A stretch of DNA of 64,000 bases from Antedon mediterranea (taxonomy: Eukaryota > Echinodermata > Crinoidea > Comatulida > Antedonidae), in contig NC_092674.1 in the NCBI RefSeq assembly GCF_964355755.1, positions 21,850,001 through 21,914,000 on the forward strand, written 5' to 3'. Of the stretch, positions 2,723 through 61,756 are shown in pieces. Position numbers and translations under genes: made by a program. The notes under the pieces were generated by a model, which was given only the letters and a program-made list of their open reading frames with translations, did no database searches and had not been told where the DNA came from. Each line of letters begins with the position of its first letter. Position 1 is the first letter of the stretch.

Positions 2723-3817
2723 AATTTTGGAGATATACTTTTGGTAAATTGTGGAAAAAATCGGTTACTGCTGAGAACACGCCTGATCACCAGGATAGCA
2801 AATGTGATATAGATGTACGAGTAAATGAAACTTTATCACAGAAAGAAGCTGTTAACGATGACTGTGGCAGGAAACTATTAAAGAAAAATTCAAGCATACA
2901 CTGTCAGAGAGGTTATGATGAAAGAGCGAAGCAGAATTTAAATCTCCTGCCAACTGTATGCGTTGACAAAGAGGAAGGTATTTTTGCTGTTCATAAAAAT
3001 GAGAAATCTGCTCATCCCATTCATGTTGTAAAAAGGACAATTGCCAAAGGAGATATGCCAATGAATTTGTTTTGTGAGGTGGAAGAGTGCATGATGGCAG
3101 TCAATCTGGCTCGCTACAGTGGAATAACATCCTTCGAATGTATACACCTTTTATCAGTTGCTGACAGTGAACCGCATCGACAGCAGGGAATGCTCAGTAA
3201 GGACAAGTTGCTAGAGTTGTCTCAATCTCAATCACAGCAGTACTCTAAGGAAATATTACATTCTGCAGATGCATTGAACCAGGCAGCTAGAACATGTGCT
3301 AAATGCAGTGTATATCCCATTTCGCAGATGACAGAAGATAACACATTTTTGTTCTTCTCAGTTTATTGCCCCACAGTAAGCTACTACAATAAGGTGAAAA
3401 GAGTGATAGTGCATTATAAGGCGATTGACAATTCATGGAATTGTAAATGTCCAATGGGTGAGCGGTCATGTGTACATAAAGTAATGGCAAAGTGGTATAT
3501 GTTAGAAAGTGCTCCGCAACTGTTAATGAAAACACTGACCACACCAACACAAACTGAACAAACATCTAAGCCAAATGCAAGCAATTATCCTCCACCTACT
3601 GCAATGAAAAGAAAAATGGTTTCCTATTGGTTAAACAATGCCAGCAAAAGAATACCGTATCCTGTTCCAAAGAAATTCACTCAAGTCAACTTAAATTCTC
3701 TGGATCTAGTTCCTACAGAAATAAGGTGTTCACAGTGTCCAGGAAACCCAACATTGGGTCTACGAAAACTGATAACAAGTCACGCTTCAATCATTACTAT
3801 GCATAAAATTATTAAAG
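2723..3817 (+). CDS. Exon with the SWIM zinc finger (N-terminal part of the transposase-derived protein)
   Basis: The exon follows a TTTTCAG acceptor and supplies residues 1-364. It begins inside a codon, so an upstream exon exists. The SWIM motif CKCPMGERSCVHK (CxC-x6-CxH) follows a conserved-looking NSW at about residue 238. An earlier Cys/His segment (CEVEEC...FECIHLLSV) and a later CSQC pair are also present. The frame stays open to TAA at 3936, which mimics a short complete protein. Using the GC donor after 3817 (AAAG/GCAAGT) joins the frame to the exon at 4687, where the encoded sequence continues the family pattern. Confidence 0.88.
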
Positions 3818-6800
3818 GCAAGTTTATGGCAATGATATGTTCAAATCATGACAATTATAATAAAAAAGTAACACAATTTCTTTCTTCGAACACAAATTGC
3901 ATTGACATGTTTGAAATGGATGAAATTACTTATTAACAACTAGAACAGCCCTCTGAGAGTGCATATACCTCCCCCTACTGTAAAATTCTCCTACATAAGA
4001 TTTTTTTTTTTTGGTGTTTTAATGTTGTGTGTGATTAGGCTAATTTCACTACAACCTTGTGTATGCGAATTTCGTGTAATGGTTATGTAACCAGCCTTTC
4101 AACTAACAATAGTTTCAGTTGACTAACAATAGAACAGCAATGCCAAAAACAAATTGAAAAGAAGTCGGTTTTTTTTAAACTACTTGTATCCAAAAACCTG
4201 TACATTATTAAATCAAATTACAAATGCCAAATTATAACTCTTGCCTCTTAATTGTACCTTTTTTGGACAAGTAGTTCTTGAGAAAATGCCATTTCAGTTT
4301 ACTTGTTACTTTAAGACTGTTCACCGGCTTTTGAAAATTGTCTCCTATCTTTTAACACTAGTAGGTCTGAAAATAATACTAAAAGTGGTCCAGAATTGGG
4401 ATCGTGGTTCGGATTGCTTCCAATGGAGTGGTCCTTGACCACATATCGATCTGTATTTTCATTTTGGTAAAGATCTTGCAATAACTTTTTGAGTAGTCCT
4501 GCTAACAAACAGACACACGCAATCGACTACATATACCTACTTGTCGGAGGTAAAGTTAATTATTGTTAATAACAGATAATCAAACACTCCCTAATAACAT
4601 TGTAATTTGTGTTTGAATAATAATTGAAATAAAATAGTTGAAAATGCCACAACTATATAATTTTAAATTATCATTAATTATTTCAGATGTTAAATTGTAC
4701 ATCAGAGAGTGTACATTATGTTCCTTGCCTTACCGATATCAAGAGTACACGGACGGAATTCACAATTTCGATGACAACTGGTTAATTTCCTTGGAACTAC
4801 TTGTGTTTTTGCGCCACAATCGGATGGTGAGTTATCCCATCCCATGGACAATGAATACAAGGACTTGCATCGGCGGCGAGATAAAACGAGCTTGCCTATA
4901 ACAATGTATCTTGCCTCAGCCCTCTATAGACAGTTTCAAATCAACTGTTAAAATTTTAAAATCATTATCAAAAACAAATGTACTCATGTATACAGTAAAT
5001 CATATATGCAGCCTCATTGCTCTATTGACTCCTCCACGGTAGTTGCAAACAATTACAACAATATGTTGCTGAACTCGATTATTTTTAATTTCATCAAAAT
5101 CGGGCGACAGAAAACTTATTTTCTTTTAATACAACCATAGCTTTTAGGTATTTTATATTATTGAAAACATAAAATTTGAAGTATTAGAATTATTACATTG
5201 TTCCAAAACCATGTAGTGATGTGCAGTGCAACAATTGTTTTAAATACATGGCTATAGGCAGCATTTTTTTCCATGAATCTCCTTAATTTATTTATCTATG
5301 TGATCTGGTGATTGTCATCTACAGTACATCACCGGGCCAAATCAAATCTAAACTGCTGCTGGCCAGTTGCGATACATGACTGACCACACACTCGTGCTCG
5401 TTTTGAAAGTAGACGCATGCCATACTTTCTCTCACTTTTTTTTCAGAGTTATATGGCTCTCGATGGTGTACTTACTGCTTTAGAAAATATGATAAATGAA
5501 AAACTACCATCAAAGGTATTACTACGTGGTTTGGAGCACTTCGAGGCCTTGAGTGAACGATCTTATAACTTTACATGTGTTGCATGTGGTATTCATCCAC
5601 CTATCCTTATAATGGAAATGCAGAAAAACGCTTGCTTTTCATTGGATGGTAAGTTTGTAGAGAAACTATTAATAGGCACAATTCATTATTGTTGTTGGTA
5701 CACTTTTCAAAATTATTTAACATCATTTTCAAATTATAGTTTCAGAGTTAGAGCTTCCAGATCTAACAGATGAAAATGACTCTGTCGATATTGAGGACTT
5801 TTGGACAAAAGTGAAAAAAGAAAAGCTGATAAATGGGCTACTAATAAGTAAGTGAACATTTAATTATGTTACAGTTATCATTGTATTCACTCAAAACAAT
5901 ATTAATGCAGTATAATAATATTAACAATAATTACCAGCACATACAAAATAAGTTATCGAATGCCAAAATTGAGTTTCATTGGATCAGATGTTGAAAATAT
6001 TGACTATAATCTTCAACAGAGAATGAACGAAACCCATTAAAAGTCAAACCTACATATACAAATTGGGCCCCATTTATTGGTAGACGAACCTGCTCTGCTG
6101 TTAAAGCTATCAACACTGAACATCGAAAATTTGTGCGAGACACCTCTCAACTTGAAGTTGATTGCCGGGAGACTTGTAAAAAACAACTTTTAGAAAGGCT
6201 GCTTTCACCACATATAAAGGCAGGTTTTGTAGTTTTATAAGAACAGTAGCAGAAAAATTAATTAAATGACCCTTGTTTTTTTTTTTTCTTAGTACAATAT
6301 AGTTGAGTACAACTTTTTAGATTTGCGTATATTATTTTGTTCTAACTGTGGTACTTGTTTATTTCAACATCCAGAGACTTTTTAAAATTTAATTAAACCA
6401 AACAACATTTTATAAAACACAAATTTTGCAGGTTCATCAAGTGAAAGATTTGTGCAGGGTATGTGATGTGAAACCAACCGGGTCCAAGCTTGACATGGTT
6501 TTGCAAATACAGGGCAGCAGTGTATGGGGCACTTCAGGTAAACCTTTTCAGAAAGGCATTTATTTTTTGGGTGTATGGTAACAAATAAATAAATGCCACT
6601 TGATATAAAAAAAATACAACACAATTAATATCAAGAAGTTATAAAATACAGTAAAAATTATATCAAAATACTTTGTAAATTGTAGATCTTTGAAGTCATG
6701 AATTCTACTACAAATAGAAATGTGTTCTAATACAGTATTGTGTGTAATGCACTTATTCAAAGCGAGGCATTTATTTGAATAAATACGGTATGTCTAATTT

Positions 6801-9800
6801 TCTAGTAGTATTACAAACAGTGATATTGCTGATATTCTGGAAATATTGATATTTTCTTTGTTACTTAACAGGTGGTTGGCTCTCTGCAAGTTGTCCACAT
6901 CAGATTGTATATGGAGTAAAATTCTTGCTCCTGGCCGAAAGTCCAAGGGACTATGTAGACTTGATTATGTCTTTGGCAAAACAACCACCAATTATTGTAT
7001 GTGATATACCCCAGATGGTTTCGAGACATGGTAACCGACGTACAGATGGAGTTATGTTTCAACCAAACGAAGGAAGATTTGTGGAACCAACTGAGGAAAA
7101 CATAAAAGCAGCCAAAGAAGGGACACTGCAAGTTCATCTTAAGACACTAGATGATGTCTATCCCAACATGAATCCTACATCCGTCACTGTAGATACAAAA
7201 GCAACACTTTGCCTCTTCAATACTTTTCATCAATTTGATACAAAAATGGAAAGGGAAGTACTACGAAAAGTTTGCCTATGCCCACAATTAAAAGGAATGT
7301 TAAATTCCCAGGTTGCAGAGCAGCTCCACAGATCTAGAGATTTCTTGAACAGCATGAACCCATCATCACACATTTTCTCTGTTTTGAATATACTAGACAG
7401 CAACAACACATCATTAAACCAGATATATGTTTCAAATATGAAGAAAGTGTTTAAGAAAGAAATAATCATCGATGACTGTAGTAAAGCAGTCATAGATACA
7501 CAAAGTCACGGTACGTTTTTGCAACCATATAACAGTTTCAGGAATTGAAACCAGACATGATACAATTACCATCATTTTGTAGAGTGACATGTATGTTACA
7601 CTACAGTTCGTATCTAAAATTAACCCATTTATATTGCAAATAGCTCATAATCGTATACTATCAACATTTTATCATATGTAATAAAGGAAATAAACAATAA
7701 CCTCAATGAAAGTTTTCCTTTTTAAATTTCATGCTAAGAATACCAATTCCCTTTAGCCCTTATTTATATTTCACCATTGTTTTTTCCAGTTATACCAATG
7801 CCCAGCAACATAAAAACAGAGAAAGCCACTGAGCAGAATGACGATGTCACCCATTCTGGTCAGTTAAACTTATATTAAAAACAATTTTTTCGATCCAGTT
7901 TTTGGTCAAAGGAATAATTATTATGTGATATTAAAATGGCATATTAAAAAAATTGTTTTTAAATATTATATCAGGGGGACAGTACAGTATATCTTTAATA
8001 GGGGTTCTACTGTATTTGAGAACCATCTGTGGGCACGACCTAGTTGGTGTGAGCGTTCCATTCAAATAAACACAATGATAAACCAAAAATTAAATACAAT
8101 ATGTTTAATTTCATTATAGAAACTGGAGAAAGAGATGTACATTCAGAGGACATCAATAATATTTATATTCCCGAAAAATATATAAACGGTAATAGAAATA
8201 AAGTAACAAAAAGCTGAATACATAAAAACACATGTAAAGTACAATTGTAAATTTTTTTTTAAATTGTTAAATTATATGAAGTATATTTAAATATATAGAG
8301 CGTATGGCATCGGTTACCTGTGTCACATTTGAGGAACTCCAAATTGGCCATATAATTATAATTTTATAAATAATAATTTGCAAATGACGAAATATATAAT
8401 ATAGACAACTTGTGCTGTCATAGTAGGGCATAATTATGACCAAACCTGATTTTTTTCAATCTGAAATATATACAATGAACAATACAGTCCAAACAAGTAT
8501 CTAAGGACAGGAATGTTGTGTATGCACAGACAATTTTCAAAATAAAATATTGATAATCATCAATTTTAGATGAGGATGAAGATATAGCAACAGACGAAAC
8601 TGATGCTGTTGCTAAAGAGTGTGACTTCAATACAACACCAGAAACAAAAAATTTGCATCACATCATTGAATCACTCCCAGAATCATGGAATGATGATATG
8701 AATGGTAAGGAAAAAATTGATCTCTTTCTTATGTACAGTATTTTTAATTTATGCCTTATTTCCAGCTAACCCAGCTCTGAAAATTCAATGATGAAAAAGT
8801 TTTGTTATATATACATTTACATAAACATTTTTTTTTTCAACCAATTTTTGATCAAAGTGAATAACTTTCATGTGACATTAAAATGGCCTATTCAATAATT
8901 GTTTTCAGGGGGACAATACATCTTTAATGACGAGCAAGAACAAGATGAAGAAAATAATGATATTAAGGAAGAAGATGAAGAAGAAATCATGAATGAGAAA
9001 GAAAAACAAAATGAAAACAATAAAAAATCAACACATTTGACGCAAAGTAGGTTAACAATTATGTTATTGAGGTAACAATTAACTGACTTATACAAACTTT
9101 GTTTATGCCATTATAACAAATATTATATAACACCTAAATAAATTCCTGTCATTTGATTGGACGAATGTGGGTCACATGGCATGCAATAGTATGCACTATT
9201 AAACGATCGTTTAATAGTACTTTTTTTGTGTACGAAAAAAAAATCTTTTCGCATTTGGAAAATATTTTGTTTTATACTATTGCTTTTCAAAAAACAACAG
9301 CGCCACCTATTTTGTTTCTTTCCCGGCGATTTGAATGTTATGACTGGTTTTAGTACTTTTCTGGAGAGATATAATATGTACTAATTTAGATCGAAAAGAC
9401 ATTTAAATTAGCTTTAGATAATTTGTAGGATTTTGATAAATTAATGGGAACATCTCTACAAGACGTGGAATCCATATGGTGGAAACCATCATTAGCCTAG
9501 ATAAGTTCCAATTTTCTGTCGAAGTTTTGCCTTTCAGCCAAGCTAGTACTAGGTCTAGCCTAGGCCTGTTAGTATTAGGCTAAGGCCTAGCCTAGGCATT
9601 TTAGCCTTGCTAGGCTTAGGATTGTTTGGTCGTTTGTTGATATAATTAACACTAAAGTAGGTGTGTTTATAAAATACATATTTATTATACAGTAAATATA
9701 ACATTTAATATAATATTAAAAACCAAACGTTACTGTTTTAATCAATGTGAATGAAATGTAAATGTAGGCCTTGGCTAGGCCTACCTTTTATTTGATTCAA

Positions 9801-12800
9801 ATGACAGGATTCTATTTAGATGTTATATAAAACAAATAATGAATGTTTTATATTCGTGTAATGGTACAAATAATGGCATTTGGTGAATGATGAAAGGTTA
9901 AATATCAACTCGGCGTTGCCTCGTTGATATATAACCTTTCATCATTCACCTCATGCCATTATTTGTACCATTACACTCATAAACATTCATTATTTGTGTC
10001 TATGCCATTATAACAAATACTATCTATGCCATTATAACAAATACTATATTCTAGGTTTATGCTGTAAGTCATCCAATTGCTATGGTCTCATATTTTGAAA
10101 TATTTAAATTGTATTTCTTCTGCCATATTTTATTGTTATGCATTTTTCATTTGTATGTCTATGCTGTTTTTAAAGGACCCCATTGGAATTCAGTTGATTT
10201 TTCTTTCGACTTTATGGGCTATCCTTGGTTTCTTATTTAATGTATTTGCTTGTAAATTGTTTGTTTTTATATTGTCTAGTAATCTTATGTTGAAAGCGAA
10301 TAAAATCAAATCAAATCAAATCTTATTCAGATTGAACCAACCAATTTAATCTCTATGAAATAGTTCATTTGACATTTATTAAGTTTTCCTTTAAGCAGGC
10401 AGGACTCGACTTGTTTGTACTGTGTACTTGAGCAATTAATGGCTATTTTAATATTAAAATTATTGGCTTCTTACCTACTTATGTTTATTAATTATTTGTT
10501 ATAGGCTATGTTACTTTTGTTCCAACCAGGTAAAGGTAGCCTGAGTAGGCAGTGCAGTTTTTATTACATGCCAGGTTAGTTAAAAATCGAACCCACTATA
10601 TATTGAACTTAATAACAACATTGGATTATTATTATTTTCTTTTTAAAGATATATCAGCATTAACTGGTTTTCTGCAGACAAGACAAACTGAGATGAAACA
10701 AATTGAAGAAAGCCTTAACAAAATAAGGAAAGACGAATGGCTGAAATTGCCAAAGTTCAGCGTCAACCTGGATGATTTGCTGTCACTTATAAGTCCAGGG
10801 TGGATCAGTGATGCGGTAAAAATGTGCTATTTGTTAAATAAATAAATACATGCAAAATGCAAAGACAATACAGCATTATTACCTAATTATTTTGACACCA
10901 CAAATAATCACCTATCTACAGCAGCCAATTGACTGCACTCATTTTCTAATAATTTTTAAAAACATTTCAAACTAGAAAGAAGGGCACTTTATTTATTTAT
11001 TTATTACCATATTTACTGAGGGTAGCCTATCCAGTTCCTAATAGAACTGATCATTCAGGGCCCTCGATAAAACATACATACAGTACAACACATAACATAT
11101 TAAATATTCAAATGACATAAAATATATTAAAGGCTTAAAAATTTACAATGATTATATAAAATTCATATAAAAGTTAAAATCGTTGACAGATAAAAAAAAA
11201 TATATATATATATGCAAAGTGCATACCTAATGTATAATTCCCCTACATATTATTTCCCCTCGAGTGTGATTAGGCTATTTTTGCACTATAACCTTTGTGA
11301 ATGTGAGTTTGTTGTAATGGTTATATATCCTTATACATCCCTGGTTCAATTCCCGCTGAGGGTCTTTTTTAAAGATATTTAACATTTACTATTTATTTCT
11401 ATAGATCGTAAATGCCTACCTGAGTTTAATTGCCTTCCAAAAAAACTTGCAAGATGAGGGGCATGTGTTTGTATTACCGACACACATTGCCACAAGGTGG
11501 AACAACCCACACATTTCACCGTGGTTGGCAAAGAAGGTATTGTTTCACAGTTATTTGCTTTTTGTACCTACCGAAATTGAATTGTTTATTCTTTTTAAAC
11601 AATGGTCAGTTACAATTTAGTTTTTCTCTTTTTGATTATTCTGTATTATAGTAGTTAAAATGTCCATCTTTAAGCTTATTATTATTATTTTTAATTCAAG
11701 AATATATTGAATATTTATATATTATTTGTGTACATTCATATTTTTTATCACTATTTAGGCCTGCAAAATGTTATGTTGGAGAAACCTGACTCTAAACGCA
11801 AATTTGCTCAAAACTTTGTGATCAAATTCTGTGACATGGATAGGATTAGAATAATAATTATATATTTTGGACTTAAAAATCCATTTGCCATGTTAACGAT
11901 AAATAATCAACTGCATATAAATGATTTTTTATTTCTTCTACATTTTATTATTATTATATATATATTATTATATGGTTCAGCTTATTTTTTGATCATGATT
12001 CAATTTTTGTTTTAATGTTTATGATTGAAGAATCAGATGTTTTTTTTTGTTCAAAGTGAACATTTTAGAGAACATGTCATCAGTAAATTAAGTTTATCTT
12101 TGTTCAACCAATTTCCTCTCTTTAGTTTCCATGTGAAAAGCTTAAACTGTGCAGCAAATTACCTGTAATTAGAAATTCAATCAATGTACAATATGTCACT
12201 TTACCATTATACTTACTTATACACACATAAATTTTTATCAATTTATACAGGTTGTCCTGTTTAAGTATGAGTGGATTCTTGTGCCAATTCATGTGCCACA
12301 ACACTGGATCCTACTTGTGGCACATGTGCCATCGAAATCAGTGAGTGTGTTGGATTCTTTACAGGGTAATAATGATGCACACATCCAGTACTTCAGGTAG
12401 TTTATTTTCTTTAATGTTCTAAACATTGAATCATTATGCCAACAATATATTAATATCTCAACCAATCTTTTGATCTAACATGAAGTTTTGGTTTATAATT
12501 TACATAAAACTAAACGTTACACAGTTATTTAAAATAATATGTAATATTTTTATCCCATTTAAGCAATTATATGGAAAAAAGGTCATCAGAAACAGGTGAA
12601 CTAGGTGGCCCATGGAAACAAATTGAAATGAATACGTGCAAACAAGCTGATGACCACAGCTGTGGTTCTTTTGTTATGTTGGTACGTACTAGGTTTTTAA
12701 AATTTAGATGTATAGTCTGTAAATTATAAGATACGATTATTATCTTTAAAACACAGAAAACCATTTTGCTTGGAAGTTTGTTACACATTTAAATTAAACA

Positions 12801-15800
12801 AGATAACAACTATACTTACTATAAATCTTTTAAAGGTAAAGTGTATAGACGGTTTTATATGTATAAATATATATGCTATATATTGACTAACAATAAAAGT
12901 ATAGTACTGTATTAAAAAATGTGGTAAACCAATGTTGACATACTAGACATTTTAGAAAACGGATCAGCTGAACGTCAACACACCTCTGTGTTAAAATAAC
13001 AAAATTGTAATTAATAATAATAGTAACTTTAAATTGATAGATCATTATACGTTTTGTTAAACATAATAATAATAATAACTAGATTTGAACTCGTCACTAC
13101 GGACGAGTTAGGTTATCCGCAGCGCAAACGCCACGTTCACATCATACGTTAGAATATTGCGCACAGAAAAACGATTATGCGATTGAAAAAATATTAGTGC
13201 GCTCTCTATTTTGTGTCACGTCTAAGTATATACAGTATAACACTGTATACGTACTACATACAGTGCAGAATAGGTGAAAATAAGTGACCAAAGTTATTGA
13301 CGCTTTTGGACATGATGACGTCACAAAAAATTTAAAAATGGTAAATCATGCGAAAGATAATTGATTGACCTAGACAATATAAAAACATGGGGGGAAAATG
13401 AAATACGGATAAGTGGAGATGCGCTCTATTAAATGTGATGAGCTATGACAGAAGAGAAAAAAATCCTCTATTTTATATTCGAGTGGCCATACGATGACGT
13501 CAAAATATTAGGTTAGTCATATCAATTCATGATTCGATATCTACAACTCATCTACTTTTAGAATATGTAATAAAAAATAAAATTCACCTTGTAGTTTAGA
13601 ATCTATGACTGATTAAAAAAAGGCATAATTTTGACAAATTGTTGAACTTTTTCATCAAAAACGCGCGCAAATTATCCAATTCCACGTGCTCGTATGACGT
13701 GATTTTAAGTCGAAATTGTTTAAAAATTGGTAAAATTACTAGAAAAGGCTGAAAAACATAAATCACGCAAAAAAAGATGTGCGAGCGTGGACATTTTTGA
13801 AATGCTCAAAATGACATGAAACGCGTAGAAAGTTGATTAGAAGTTGATTTTTCTCATTTTGAAATTTTAAACGCGCGTGCACACGTCTATGTTAAATACG
13901 CGAAATTCATAAAATCGCGCGTAACTTACGCTGCGTGACTCTAAAGTAAAAAAACGAACTTTCCTGCACTTCTACAGATAGAGGTCAATCTTCTGACAAA
14001 GTTATACAATGTAATGTTGATAAGAATTTGAGACAGACTGACCTCTAGAGGTCAGTCTGTTTGATGATAGATCGTCATTATTTCTGAAGAAGCTGTCCGA
14101 TCAGGACAGCGAAACTGTCAAGGTTAGTTTTTACTAATTATTGGTTTGGAAAAAAGAATATTTTCAAGATACATACACTGTATATGTTATATACAGTGTA
14201 GCATAGATGAAATTACGAGACCCATCTTTTAAATCCAATTATTAACACGATGACGTCATCAAATTGACATATAAAGATAACTATTTTAGAAGATAATTAT
14301 CTAAATAATTACATTAATACAAATTTGAAGAATTTTGGGCACGTAAAAGTCAGATGCGCTCTCGTTTAAACGCAATGAACTTTTACGCAAGAGATGAAAA
14401 TACGACTTTTTTATTCAACTGGCTATATGATGACGTCACAACATCTGATTTGAAAAATGTTCACATTAATTCGTATCTACAATCCAATAGCTTCCAGAAA
14501 ACGTTTTAATTATGATTATCACTTTTTATTCTGACGAGCTATAACAGATTGAAATTTACTGTAAAGATGAAAATAGGTGACCCACGTTATTTACATTTTT
14601 AGACATGATGACGTCATAACAATTAAAATATTTTTAACTCATGCGAAAGATAGTTGATTGACGTAGACAATAATAAAATCTTGGGGGAAATGAAATTCGT
14701 ATGAGCGAGATGCGCTTTGTTGAATGTGATGAGCAATAACAAAATAGACAAAAATCCTATTTTTTACATTTGTGTGGCCATACGATGACGTCATAACATC
14801 CGAGAGTTAAAAATTCTGCATAAGTTCATATCTACAATTTATCTTCTTGCATAATAAGTTAAAAATATTGGGGGTCACCTTCGATCATGAAGAGCTATAT
14901 TGGCATTATTTTGACAATATTTTCTAACTTTTTCAACAGAAACGCGCGCAAATGGTCTAAAATGGTCTGATTTTAAGTCGAAATTGTTTAAAAGTTGGTA
15001 AAATTACTAGAAAAAACCTGAAAAAACCTGTTTTTTTAACGCTACGTACGCACCGCGCGCGTAAAATATTTTGCGCGAGCGGTAATTTTTGACATGCTCA
15101 AAATGTCATGATCAGCGTAGAAAGTTGATTAGAAATTAATTTTGCAAATATTAAAATTTTAAATGCGCGTGCGCGCGTAACTTCTTGTGAAACATGCCAT
15201 TTTTAATCCATAGAAAGTTCGCCCTTGATATGACTTAAATGTTCACCAAGTGCGAATACAAAATGACTTTTGGTTTATAATCTATGATCAATCATTGAAA
15301 TTCATAAAATCGCGCGTAACTTACACTGCGCCACTCTAACGTCATAAAAAATATGGAGGTGCACAACTTCATGCAAATGTCCATATGTTGACTAAGTTAT
15401 GAAATGTTATATTTACAAGAATGACAGATATGCGTGACGCAAAATTCTGGGAAAGAAAGAAGAATAACAAAGAAGATAAAAAAGATCGTGACAATAACAA
15501 GGGTTATCCGCAACTACTAAGTTGCGGATAACCAAAAAAAAAAGATTGTGACAATAACAAGGGGTTATCCGCCAAGTGCGGATAACTAATAAAGTATATC
15601 TTAGTTTTCAGTATGAATGACAAATATTATGTACTGTATTTGTCATTTTTTTGTACTGTAATATAGAAATTATCTTTTTTTTTATCTTTTTCAGAATGCT
15701 TACTTCATCAGTGAAGGGGTGCATCCCTCTTTAATCACACCAGATATGGCAGCCACAATGAGGGTATGGGTCCTAAAGAAATTACTAGGATATGGCAAAA

Positions 15801-15967
15801 AGGGAACCCAAGTGCAATGTGATGCGGAACCATGTCTGGGGACAGATGACACATGGATTGGATGTGATGTGTGTGGCCGGTGGTTCCACAAAAATACTTG
15901 TACCACCACCATTGAAACTCCATCTACTGAATGGGAATGCGATATTTGTGTTGCAAGATATCGATAA
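2723..15967 (+). CDS. SWIM / KDZ transposase-like / Ulp1 protease / PHD protein (5' partial, 16 exons)
   Basis: Exons: 2723-3817, 4687-4826, 5447-5648, 5740-5847, 6020-6219, 6432-6537, 6872-7510, 7790-7858, 8120-8188, 8570-8704, 8909-9046, 10649-10815, 11405-11536, 12251-12396, 12564-12681, 15695-15967. All junction phases agree, giving 1244 residues plus a stop. Order of domains: Cys/His-rich segment and SWIM finger (C240, C242, C249, H251); a CTLC...YRYQEYTDGIHNFDD segment; an RNase H-like region (about 580-780) resembling KDZ/Zisupton transposases, as in proteins often named HMG domain-containing protein 3-like; an acidic linker; a Ulp1/C48 domain (H1084, D1101, Q1142, C1148); and a C4HC3 PHD finger (1196-1239). 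Likely nuclear, perhaps chromatin- or SUMO-related (inference). The multi-intron structure and uninterrupted frame favour a host or domesticated gene over a recent insertion. AATAAA lies at 16193. The first exon was not found. Confidence 0.88.
3818..4686 (+). other. GC-AG intron 1 of the transposase-derived gene
   Basis: The donor reads AAAG/GCAAGT, the strong consensus for rare GC-AG introns, and the acceptor is TATTTCAG. Splicing leaves one base that completes an Asp codon with the first two bases of the next exon, and the frame then stays open. No GT donor in the last 150 bases of the exon does this. The intron carries no other coding signal. Confidence 0.8.
6220..6431 (+). other. Second GC-AG intron
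   Basis: Exon 6020-6219 ends ATAAAG/GCAGGT, and the next exon starts after TTTTGCAG. With this GC donor the frame runs on into VHQVKDLCRVCDV. The nearby GT alternative at 6224 (GCAG/GTTTTG) is weak and gives a stop after 11 codons of the next exon. Confidence 0.72.
6872..7510 (+). CDS. Exon with the transposase-like (RNase H-fold type) core
   Basis: This 639-base exon encodes residues 617-830. Features that recall KDZ/Zisupton transposases are a C-x-H pair followed by IVYGVKFLLLAESPRDYVD, then PPIIVCDI (candidate catalytic D661), a GRFVEP segment, and SQVAEQLHRSRDFLNSM (candidate last acidic residue E766). The family assignment comes from motif order, and the catalytic roles are inferred. 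No stop or frameshift interrupts the exon. Confidence 0.78.
7886..7995 (+). pseudogene. Decayed duplicate of the acidic-linker exon start
   Basis: The intron between 7859 and 8119 contains a diverged copy of sequence found at 8822-8933. Both have a T-rich run, TTTTTGRTCAAAG, ATTAAAATGGC, a TCAGGGGGACA acceptor-like junction and TATCTTTAAT. The second copy is the 5' edge of the real exon at 8909 (GGQYIFND). The first copy has an inserted TAGTATA stretch and soon meets a stop, so it looks like a lost duplicate exon. Confidence 0.65.
9104..10046. mobile_element. Insertion flanked by TATGCCATTATAACAAATA direct repeats
   Basis: The motif TATGCCATTATAACAAATA occurs at 9104 and again at 10001 (final base changed to C) and 10025, bracketing about 900 bp inside an intron. 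The interior holds a perfect 24-bp palindrome (9195-9218, ACTATTAAACGA and its complement), a TAGGCCTA-rich patch (9540-9620) and a long foldback (9832-9997) next to the right repeat. I see no coding sequence, so this is probably a non-autonomous element or a nested pair. Confidence 0.6.
9832..9997. repeat. 166-bp near-perfect foldback (inverted repeat)
   Basis: Two arms of about 70-75 bp start with ACAAATAATGAATG and pair almost perfectly around a short CGGCGTTGCC centre. The structure is typical of a foldback-type MITE. Confidence 0.85.
10080..10335 (+). mobile_element. 3' tail of a non-LTR retrotransposon (truncated)
   Basis: A T-rich stretch ends in GAATAAAATCAAATCAAATC, a polyadenylation-like signal followed by short tandem TCAAA repeats. 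This is how many CR1/L2-type LINE fragments end. The 90-residue hydrophobic reading frame over it is not convincing as a gene. Confidence 0.45.
10649..12681 (+). CDS. Four exons encoding the Ulp1/C48 cysteine protease domain
   Basis: Exons 10649-10815, 11405-11536, 12251-12396 and 12564-12681 encode residues 967-1154. The family signature starts with PGWISDA/IVNAYLSLIA, followed by THIATRWNN and then YEWILVPIHVPQHWILLVAH with catalytic H1084. LDS gives D1101, and KQADDHSCGSFVM gives the oxyanion Q1142 and nucleophile C1148. The spacing (H to D 17, D to C 47) is normal for SUMO/Ulp1 proteases. All residues needed for activity are kept, so an active deSUMOylase or related isopeptidase is possible. 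Ulp1 domains are known as passengers in several eukaryotic DNA transposons. Confidence 0.9.
13316..14793. promoter_or_regulatory. Six perfect TGACGTCA (CRE) octamers
   Basis: TGACGTCA occurs at 13316, 13495, 14251, 14431, 14609 and 14786, with adjacent spacings of 177-180 bp. This is the CREB/ATF consensus palindrome. The octamers are part of the tandem unit of the intronic repeat, so function is not shown. Confidence 0.7.
14033..14060. repeat. 28-bp perfect palindrome
   Basis: ACAGACTGACCTCT is followed directly by its reverse complement. A second hairpin (GCTGTCC / GGACAGC) follows at 14092-14110, preceded by CTGAAGA and followed by GAAA. Confidence 0.9.
15695..15967 (+). CDS. Last exon with the C-terminal PHD finger
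   Basis: The exon follows a T-rich tract and TTTTTCAG and encodes residues 1155-1244. A C4HC3 PHD finger fills the end: C1196, C1201, C1211, C1214, H1219, C1223, C1236, C1239, with the typical WIGCD and WFH motifs. PHD fingers of this type commonly read histone H3 tails. The protein ends five residues after the last zinc ligand. Confidence 0.92.
   Translation, partial: NAYFISEGVHPSLITPDMAATMRVWVLKKLLGYGKKGTQVQCDAEPCLGTDDTWIGCDVCGRWFHKNTCTTTIETPSTEWECDICVARYR

Positions 15968-42354: not shown

Positions 42355-61756
<19,402 letters not shown>

Follow-up and report, generated by a model that had tools for sequence, protein, structure and literature searches.

An intron-rich open frame that carries regulatory domains can resemble a new host gene and yet be of a known transposon type. 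Such a frame, joining SWIM, KDZ-type transposase, Ulp1 protease and PHD domains, lies on the forward strand of a 64,000-nucleotide stretch of the Antedon mediterranea genome (NC_092674.1, positions 21,850,001 to 21,914,000; hereafter the window), and raises the question of whether it belongs to the host or to a mobile element. Our analysis favors, with a probability of about 0.6, a transposon-derived locus composed of a KDZ/Zisupton-type transposase part and a Ulp1-PHD module.

Manual assembly of the exon chain from splice signals yielded a single frame of 1244 codons at 2723-15967 (+), in which 16 exons join in phase and the sole stop is the terminal one at 15967, as a preliminary description of this DNA had proposed. 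That gene model was reached independently, given that its numbering of the Ulp1 catalytic set (H1084, D1101, Q1142 and C1148) was reproduced exactly and the set found complete. GT-AG borders delimit 13 of the introns, whereas those following exons 1 and 5 are GC-AG; the intron-5 GC donor also occurs in the paralogue on C1. Since paralogues on C1 and C4 repeat the boundaries of exons 1-7, the chain is not a product of chance. The features of the gene are as follows.

2723..3817, +, exon 1: N-terminus (truncated) with a SWIM-type CxCxnCxH motif (from residue 240); homologous to C1 exon 1, which has an extra C2H2 finger upstream; a GC-AG intron follows
4687..4826, +, exon 2: remainder of the KDZ-associated CxC4 cysteine cluster (PF18717, 4.6e-7)
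5447-5648, 5740-5847, 6020-6219 and 6432-6537, +, exons 3-6: start of the KDZ region, including E468; exon 6 (6432-6537) has a 12-aa gap relative to C1
6872..7510, +, exon 7: KDZ core; retains D661 and E766, has Asn in place of Asp at 733
within 6872..7510, +, exon 7 deletion: 4 aa, in-frame, after E766
7790-7858, 8120-8188 and 8570-8704, +, exons 8-10: linker, with exons 9-10 conserved in the paralogue on C1
8839..8930, +, dispersed-repeat copy: provides the exon 11 acceptor and the first ~22 exon bases
8909..9046, +, exon 11: acidic linker, homologous from 8936 on to a separate Ulp1 locus on C3
10649-10815, 11405-11536, 12251-12396 and 12564-12681, +, exons 12-15: Ulp1/C48 protease with H1084, D1101, Q1142 and C1148
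15695..15967, +, exon 16: end of the Ulp1 domain, C4HC3 PHD-like finger, stop codon

The proposed set of SWIM, KDZ, Ulp1 and PHD domains was supported, although profile searches called only part of it. In the window protein, Pfam recognized Peptidase_C48 (8e-13) and the KDZ-associated cysteine cluster CxC4 (PF18717), which passes its cut-off, while PHD (0.012) stayed under its own; neither SWIM nor a KDZ domain was matched, even at E 10. The SWIM part (CKC..CVH at residue 240) and the KDZ core were both assigned by motif and homology; the homology to copies flanked by target site duplications (TSDs) is clear. The KDZ model PF18758 appears insensitive to this branch, since the TSD-flanked transposon on C6 described below likewise gave no match. 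A PDB search with the window protein retrieved SENP5 (9.5e-12), SENP2 and SENP1, all at ~1e-11; judged by sequence, the protease belongs to Ulp1/SENP (C48) in fold and in its H-D-Q-C set, with SUMO cleavage as its putative activity.

When the exon 7 core was searched against all 354 Mb of the genome, 12 matches at 10 loci were obtained. Five KDZ copies (C3, C10, C4:20.24, C5:12.69 and C6:11.73, the last in reversed orientation) share the termini GAGACGGGTTGGTGAATTTTGTCC...GGACAAAATTCACCACACCTATTG and are flanked by five different, exact target duplications (CAATTTTT, AAAATTCT, TAACATTG, GTATATTC and GGTAATTC) of 8 bp, the TSD length of the KDZ superfamily (PMC12730594). The C3 and C10 elements are 99.98% identical across 4.9 kb. 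The C6:11.73 copy retains an intact single-exon frame of 1354 aa that encodes, in order, a C2H2-type finger, the SWIM motif, CxC, KDZ homology, and Ulp1-like, PHD-like and SprT-like segments. Its Ulp1-like segment, which presents HW, D, Q and C in order, was assigned from this motif order and a weak BLASTP match to the window protein (E 0.024); a PDB search with the segment returned no match. Because this element encodes it, the SWIM-KDZ-(Ulp1-like)-PHD set is the transposon's own, albeit weak by sequence in its Ulp1-like part, and the combination is not the unusual host novelty that it had been taken for. The window gene and the C6 element have in common the SWIM motif, CxC, KDZ homology and an Ulp1(-like) followed by a PHD(-like) part, but the latter is encoded by a single exon, has minisatellite-like inverted ends, a C2H2 finger and an extra C-terminal SprT-like domain, and its core is 42% identical.

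The KDZ copies of this one genome carry differing protease modules, namely Ulp1, OTU and SprT-like. A C-terminal SprT-like metalloprotease domain was observed in the single-exon KDZ frame L026:2088-5927 on C7 (2.8e-7) and in L027:3418-7479 (minus strand) on C6 (9.7e-6), one of the two being TSD-flanked. Minisatellite-like repeats make up the long inverted ends of the KDZ elements. Four decayed KDZ copies (C3, C10, L031 and L032) contain stop codons, and their second acidic site has changed from Asp to His; the near-identity of the C3 and C10 copies nevertheless suggests recent mobilization in trans.

The many introns of the window gene had been read as a sign of domestication. In Pristionchus pacificus, however, the Zisupton families comprise 18 and 31 exons, and their multi-exon genes encode proteins of up to ~1400 aa (PMC9297572). 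As a multi-exon structure is thus normal in Zisupton/KDZ elements, many introns are no evidence of domestication. Moreover, at least five intron-bearing KDZ copies exist in this genome besides the window copy. Those at C1:12.42, C4:31.81 and C4:32.01 have intron positions in common with it, while those at C1:2.94 and C4:13.72 are partial. The C4 31.8/32.0 Mb pair is 98.7% identical and the C1 2.94/12.42 Mb pair 97.8-99.4% identical. The type element of Zisupton, named for its zinc finger and Ulp1 SUMO protease, has 24 exons. The window gene resembles the Zisupton transposons (Bohne et al. 2012) in being multi-exonic but has no recognizable ends or TSD, a Glu at 468, no C2H2 finger and a repeat at the seam ahead of the protease.

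The intron-bearing relatives end in a different protease. In three, an OTU protease is encoded downstream of the KDZ part, where the window copy has Ulp1:

C1:12425482-12426168 and the downstream exons of C4a/C4b: OTU exons (Pfam 7e-14, 4e-14)

A fourth has an OTU match ~2.3 kb downstream, so that OTU lies 3' of KDZ in four of the four intron-bearing copies with an observed or matched 3' part, and Ulp1 in none of these four. An OTU remnant was also sought 3' of window exon 10, and none was found. Ginger1 DNA transposons carry alternative C-terminal Ulp1, OTU and PHD modules (PMC2836005), and variation between Ulp1 and OTU modules, as the KDZ copies display here, has already been described in these elements. 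Ginger1, however, has a gypsy-integrase-like transposase, and no Gypsy-like integrase core was found by Pfam in the 1244-aa window protein, which sets it apart from Ginger1. A genome search for OTU gave >100 matches, many of them in ~3000 aa frames and in same-length frames of 716 aa, and OTU-bearing mobile elements therefore look abundant. Two features of the C1 paralogues were also recorded: a one-base frameshift in a T run of exon 1, possibly an assembly error, and, at C1:2.938-2.941 Mb, a sequence near-identical to that at C1:12.42 Mb but for an internal deletion of 12.6 kb, with an extended array of a 157-bp satellite upstream.

The Ulp1 half of the window gene has dispersed relatives at the DNA level whose introns can be aligned at 79-92% identity: C3:13.56 Mb spans window 8936-11973, C3:12.98 Mb spans 11901-12733 in rearranged order, and C9:8.22 Mb spans 12539-13074. 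Introns of the transposase half, unlike these, could not be aligned even with the nearest copy. Homology to the C3 copy starts inside exon 11 (8936), and that copy has another acceptor further upstream, apparently in a different phase. The 8839-8930 repeat at this seam is dispersed (40 copies scored among 389 candidates) and occurs a second time in window intron 8. Other multi-exon Ulp1-PHD modules, at C6:9.16, C2:37.19 and C4:31.86, have no KDZ match of the window type nearby. As the seam is formed by a repeat and the Ulp1 half is dispersed separately, the join between transposase and protease may be secondary, through a repeat-derived splice site. Alternatively, the KDZ-Ulp1-PHD order may be ancestral, given that the TSD-flanked C6 relative has the same order, with the repeat merely having landed at the seam. 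The claim that all 16 exons form a single gene is accordingly doubtful: the seam on a repeat, the separate dispersal of the Ulp1 half and the OTU ending of the intron-bearing relatives argue against it, and the locus may be transcribed as one unit or as two.

In the composite, transposon-derived reading, exons 1-10 would be a multi-exon KDZ/Zisupton-type transposase gene, truncated at its 5' end, devoid of recognizable ends and changed from Asp to Glu at 468. Exons 11-16 would represent the Ulp1-PHD module of a dispersed multi-copy family, the two halves having been joined across the repeat that now provides a splice acceptor. From what is known of the family, the SWIM, CxC and C2H2 parts of the ancestral element would be responsible for DNA binding and its RNase-H-like KDZ core for cleavage, with the protease taking SUMO off near the transposition complex. 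Against this composite count the 1244-codon open frame, which indicates that a coding function was kept until recently, as well as the intact Ulp1 catalytic set and the difficulty of recognizing the terminal inverted repeats (TIRs) of a single-copy element. The locus would then be of an ordinary kind, derived from a KDZ/Zisupton-type transposon, with the fusion itself uncertain.

The preliminary description had called for a check of flanking TIRs and an 8-bp target duplication; across the stretch that runs from 10 kb before the window start to window position 50000, none were detected above control. As inverted ends and an 8-bp TSD were not found, we classify the window copy as KDZ/Zisupton-derived and not as a mobile member, and it is probably immobile. 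The one TIR/TSD match around the gene was no better than control, and a 94-bp inverted pair at -4030/20225 was rejected as a dispersed repeat with unequal flanks and without a TSD. A 19-bp minisatellite upstream was likewise discarded as a TIR of the window gene: it is part of an unrelated 5.3-kb DNA transposon (window -3650 to ~1635, TIRs TCATTACGCGGACC... plus the minisatellite) whose copy at C9:23.88 Mb is 99.7% identical and flanked by a direct repeat ~30 bp long.

The 5' end of the window gene is missing, since an in-frame stop directly precedes the acceptor at which the frame begins, and no Met occurs before residue 111. A start codon of its own was thus not found for the complete frame, and an unseen first exon upstream is possible. 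Exon 1 starts just past the site of the C2H2 finger in C1, C4a and C4b; a C2H2 exon was sought in the 10 kb that precede the window and ahead of exon 1, and none was found. Sites 468, 661 and 766 we take to be the D-D-E set of the transposase. D661 and E766 are kept, but residue 468, presumably the first catalytic Asp of the KDZ core, is Glu in the window copy and Asp in nine of nine relatives, so that the presumed set is not fully retained; transposase catalysis would have been lost. Residue 733 is Asn here and Asp in the clearly aligned relatives, and both E468 and N733 occur only in the window copy among the relatives aligned. In the whole-genome search, the closest copy of the transposase half had 78% aa identity, and the copy-number check proposed earlier thus turned up no near-identical copy.

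Against the C1 paralogue, dS was 0.72 and dN 0.147 over 864 codons (dN/dS 0.20), a value that active transposon lineages show as well. With C4a as outgroup, the window protein had 65 unique replacements and C1 had 34 (p=0.0024), so the window protein changes faster. In a simulation of neutral drift, 0.02 substitutions per site left only ~3% of such frames stop-free; the frame must therefore have been under selection until recently, by host or transposon, and the earlier emphasis on its openness holds in that long neutrality is ruled out. A domesticated single host gene, expressed as one transcript for a SUMO protease that binds DNA and reads chromatin, its transposase core having lost catalysis, would account for this open frame (a neutral time below ~0.02 substitutions per site), the dN/dS of 0.20, the lack of TIRs and TSD, and E468 alongside the kept Ulp1 H-D-Q-C. 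Introns 11 and 15 contain nested repeats, which suggest that the locus has long been resident, and Zisupton-derived genes have been reported in vertebrates (PMC3424704). Domestication is nevertheless rather unlikely: neither a start codon nor a C2H2 exon was found in the 10 kb upstream, the exon 11 acceptor derives from a repeat, OTU terminates the intron-bearing relatives, and the low dN/dS is equally a property of active transposons. A host gene born by fusion, in which an altered KDZ transposase was joined through the exonized repeat to an intact Ulp1-PHD module and became a chromatin-targeted SUMO protease, is a distinctly unlikely outcome.

Compared with the composite reading, a multi-exon Zisupton element that is still mobile, present in few copies and bounded by ends that escaped detection is improbable; the multi-exonic nature of Zisupton elements and the near-identical intron-bearing pairs on C1 (2.94/12.42 Mb) and C4 (31.8/32.0 Mb) would agree with it, but no TIR/TSD pair was found, nine relatives have Asp where this copy has E468, and the transposase half is 5'-truncated and has no close copy. 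Likewise improbable is a recently dead relic, the unexpressed remains of two adjoining transposon genes, which would fit the missing 5' end, the repeat at the seam and the decayed fragments of the Ulp1 half elsewhere but would require a very recent death, there being no stop or frameshift in 1244 codons. Further along the window, exons resembling an STK24/25/26-type kinase were recognized by eye at 45013-52549 on the minus strand.
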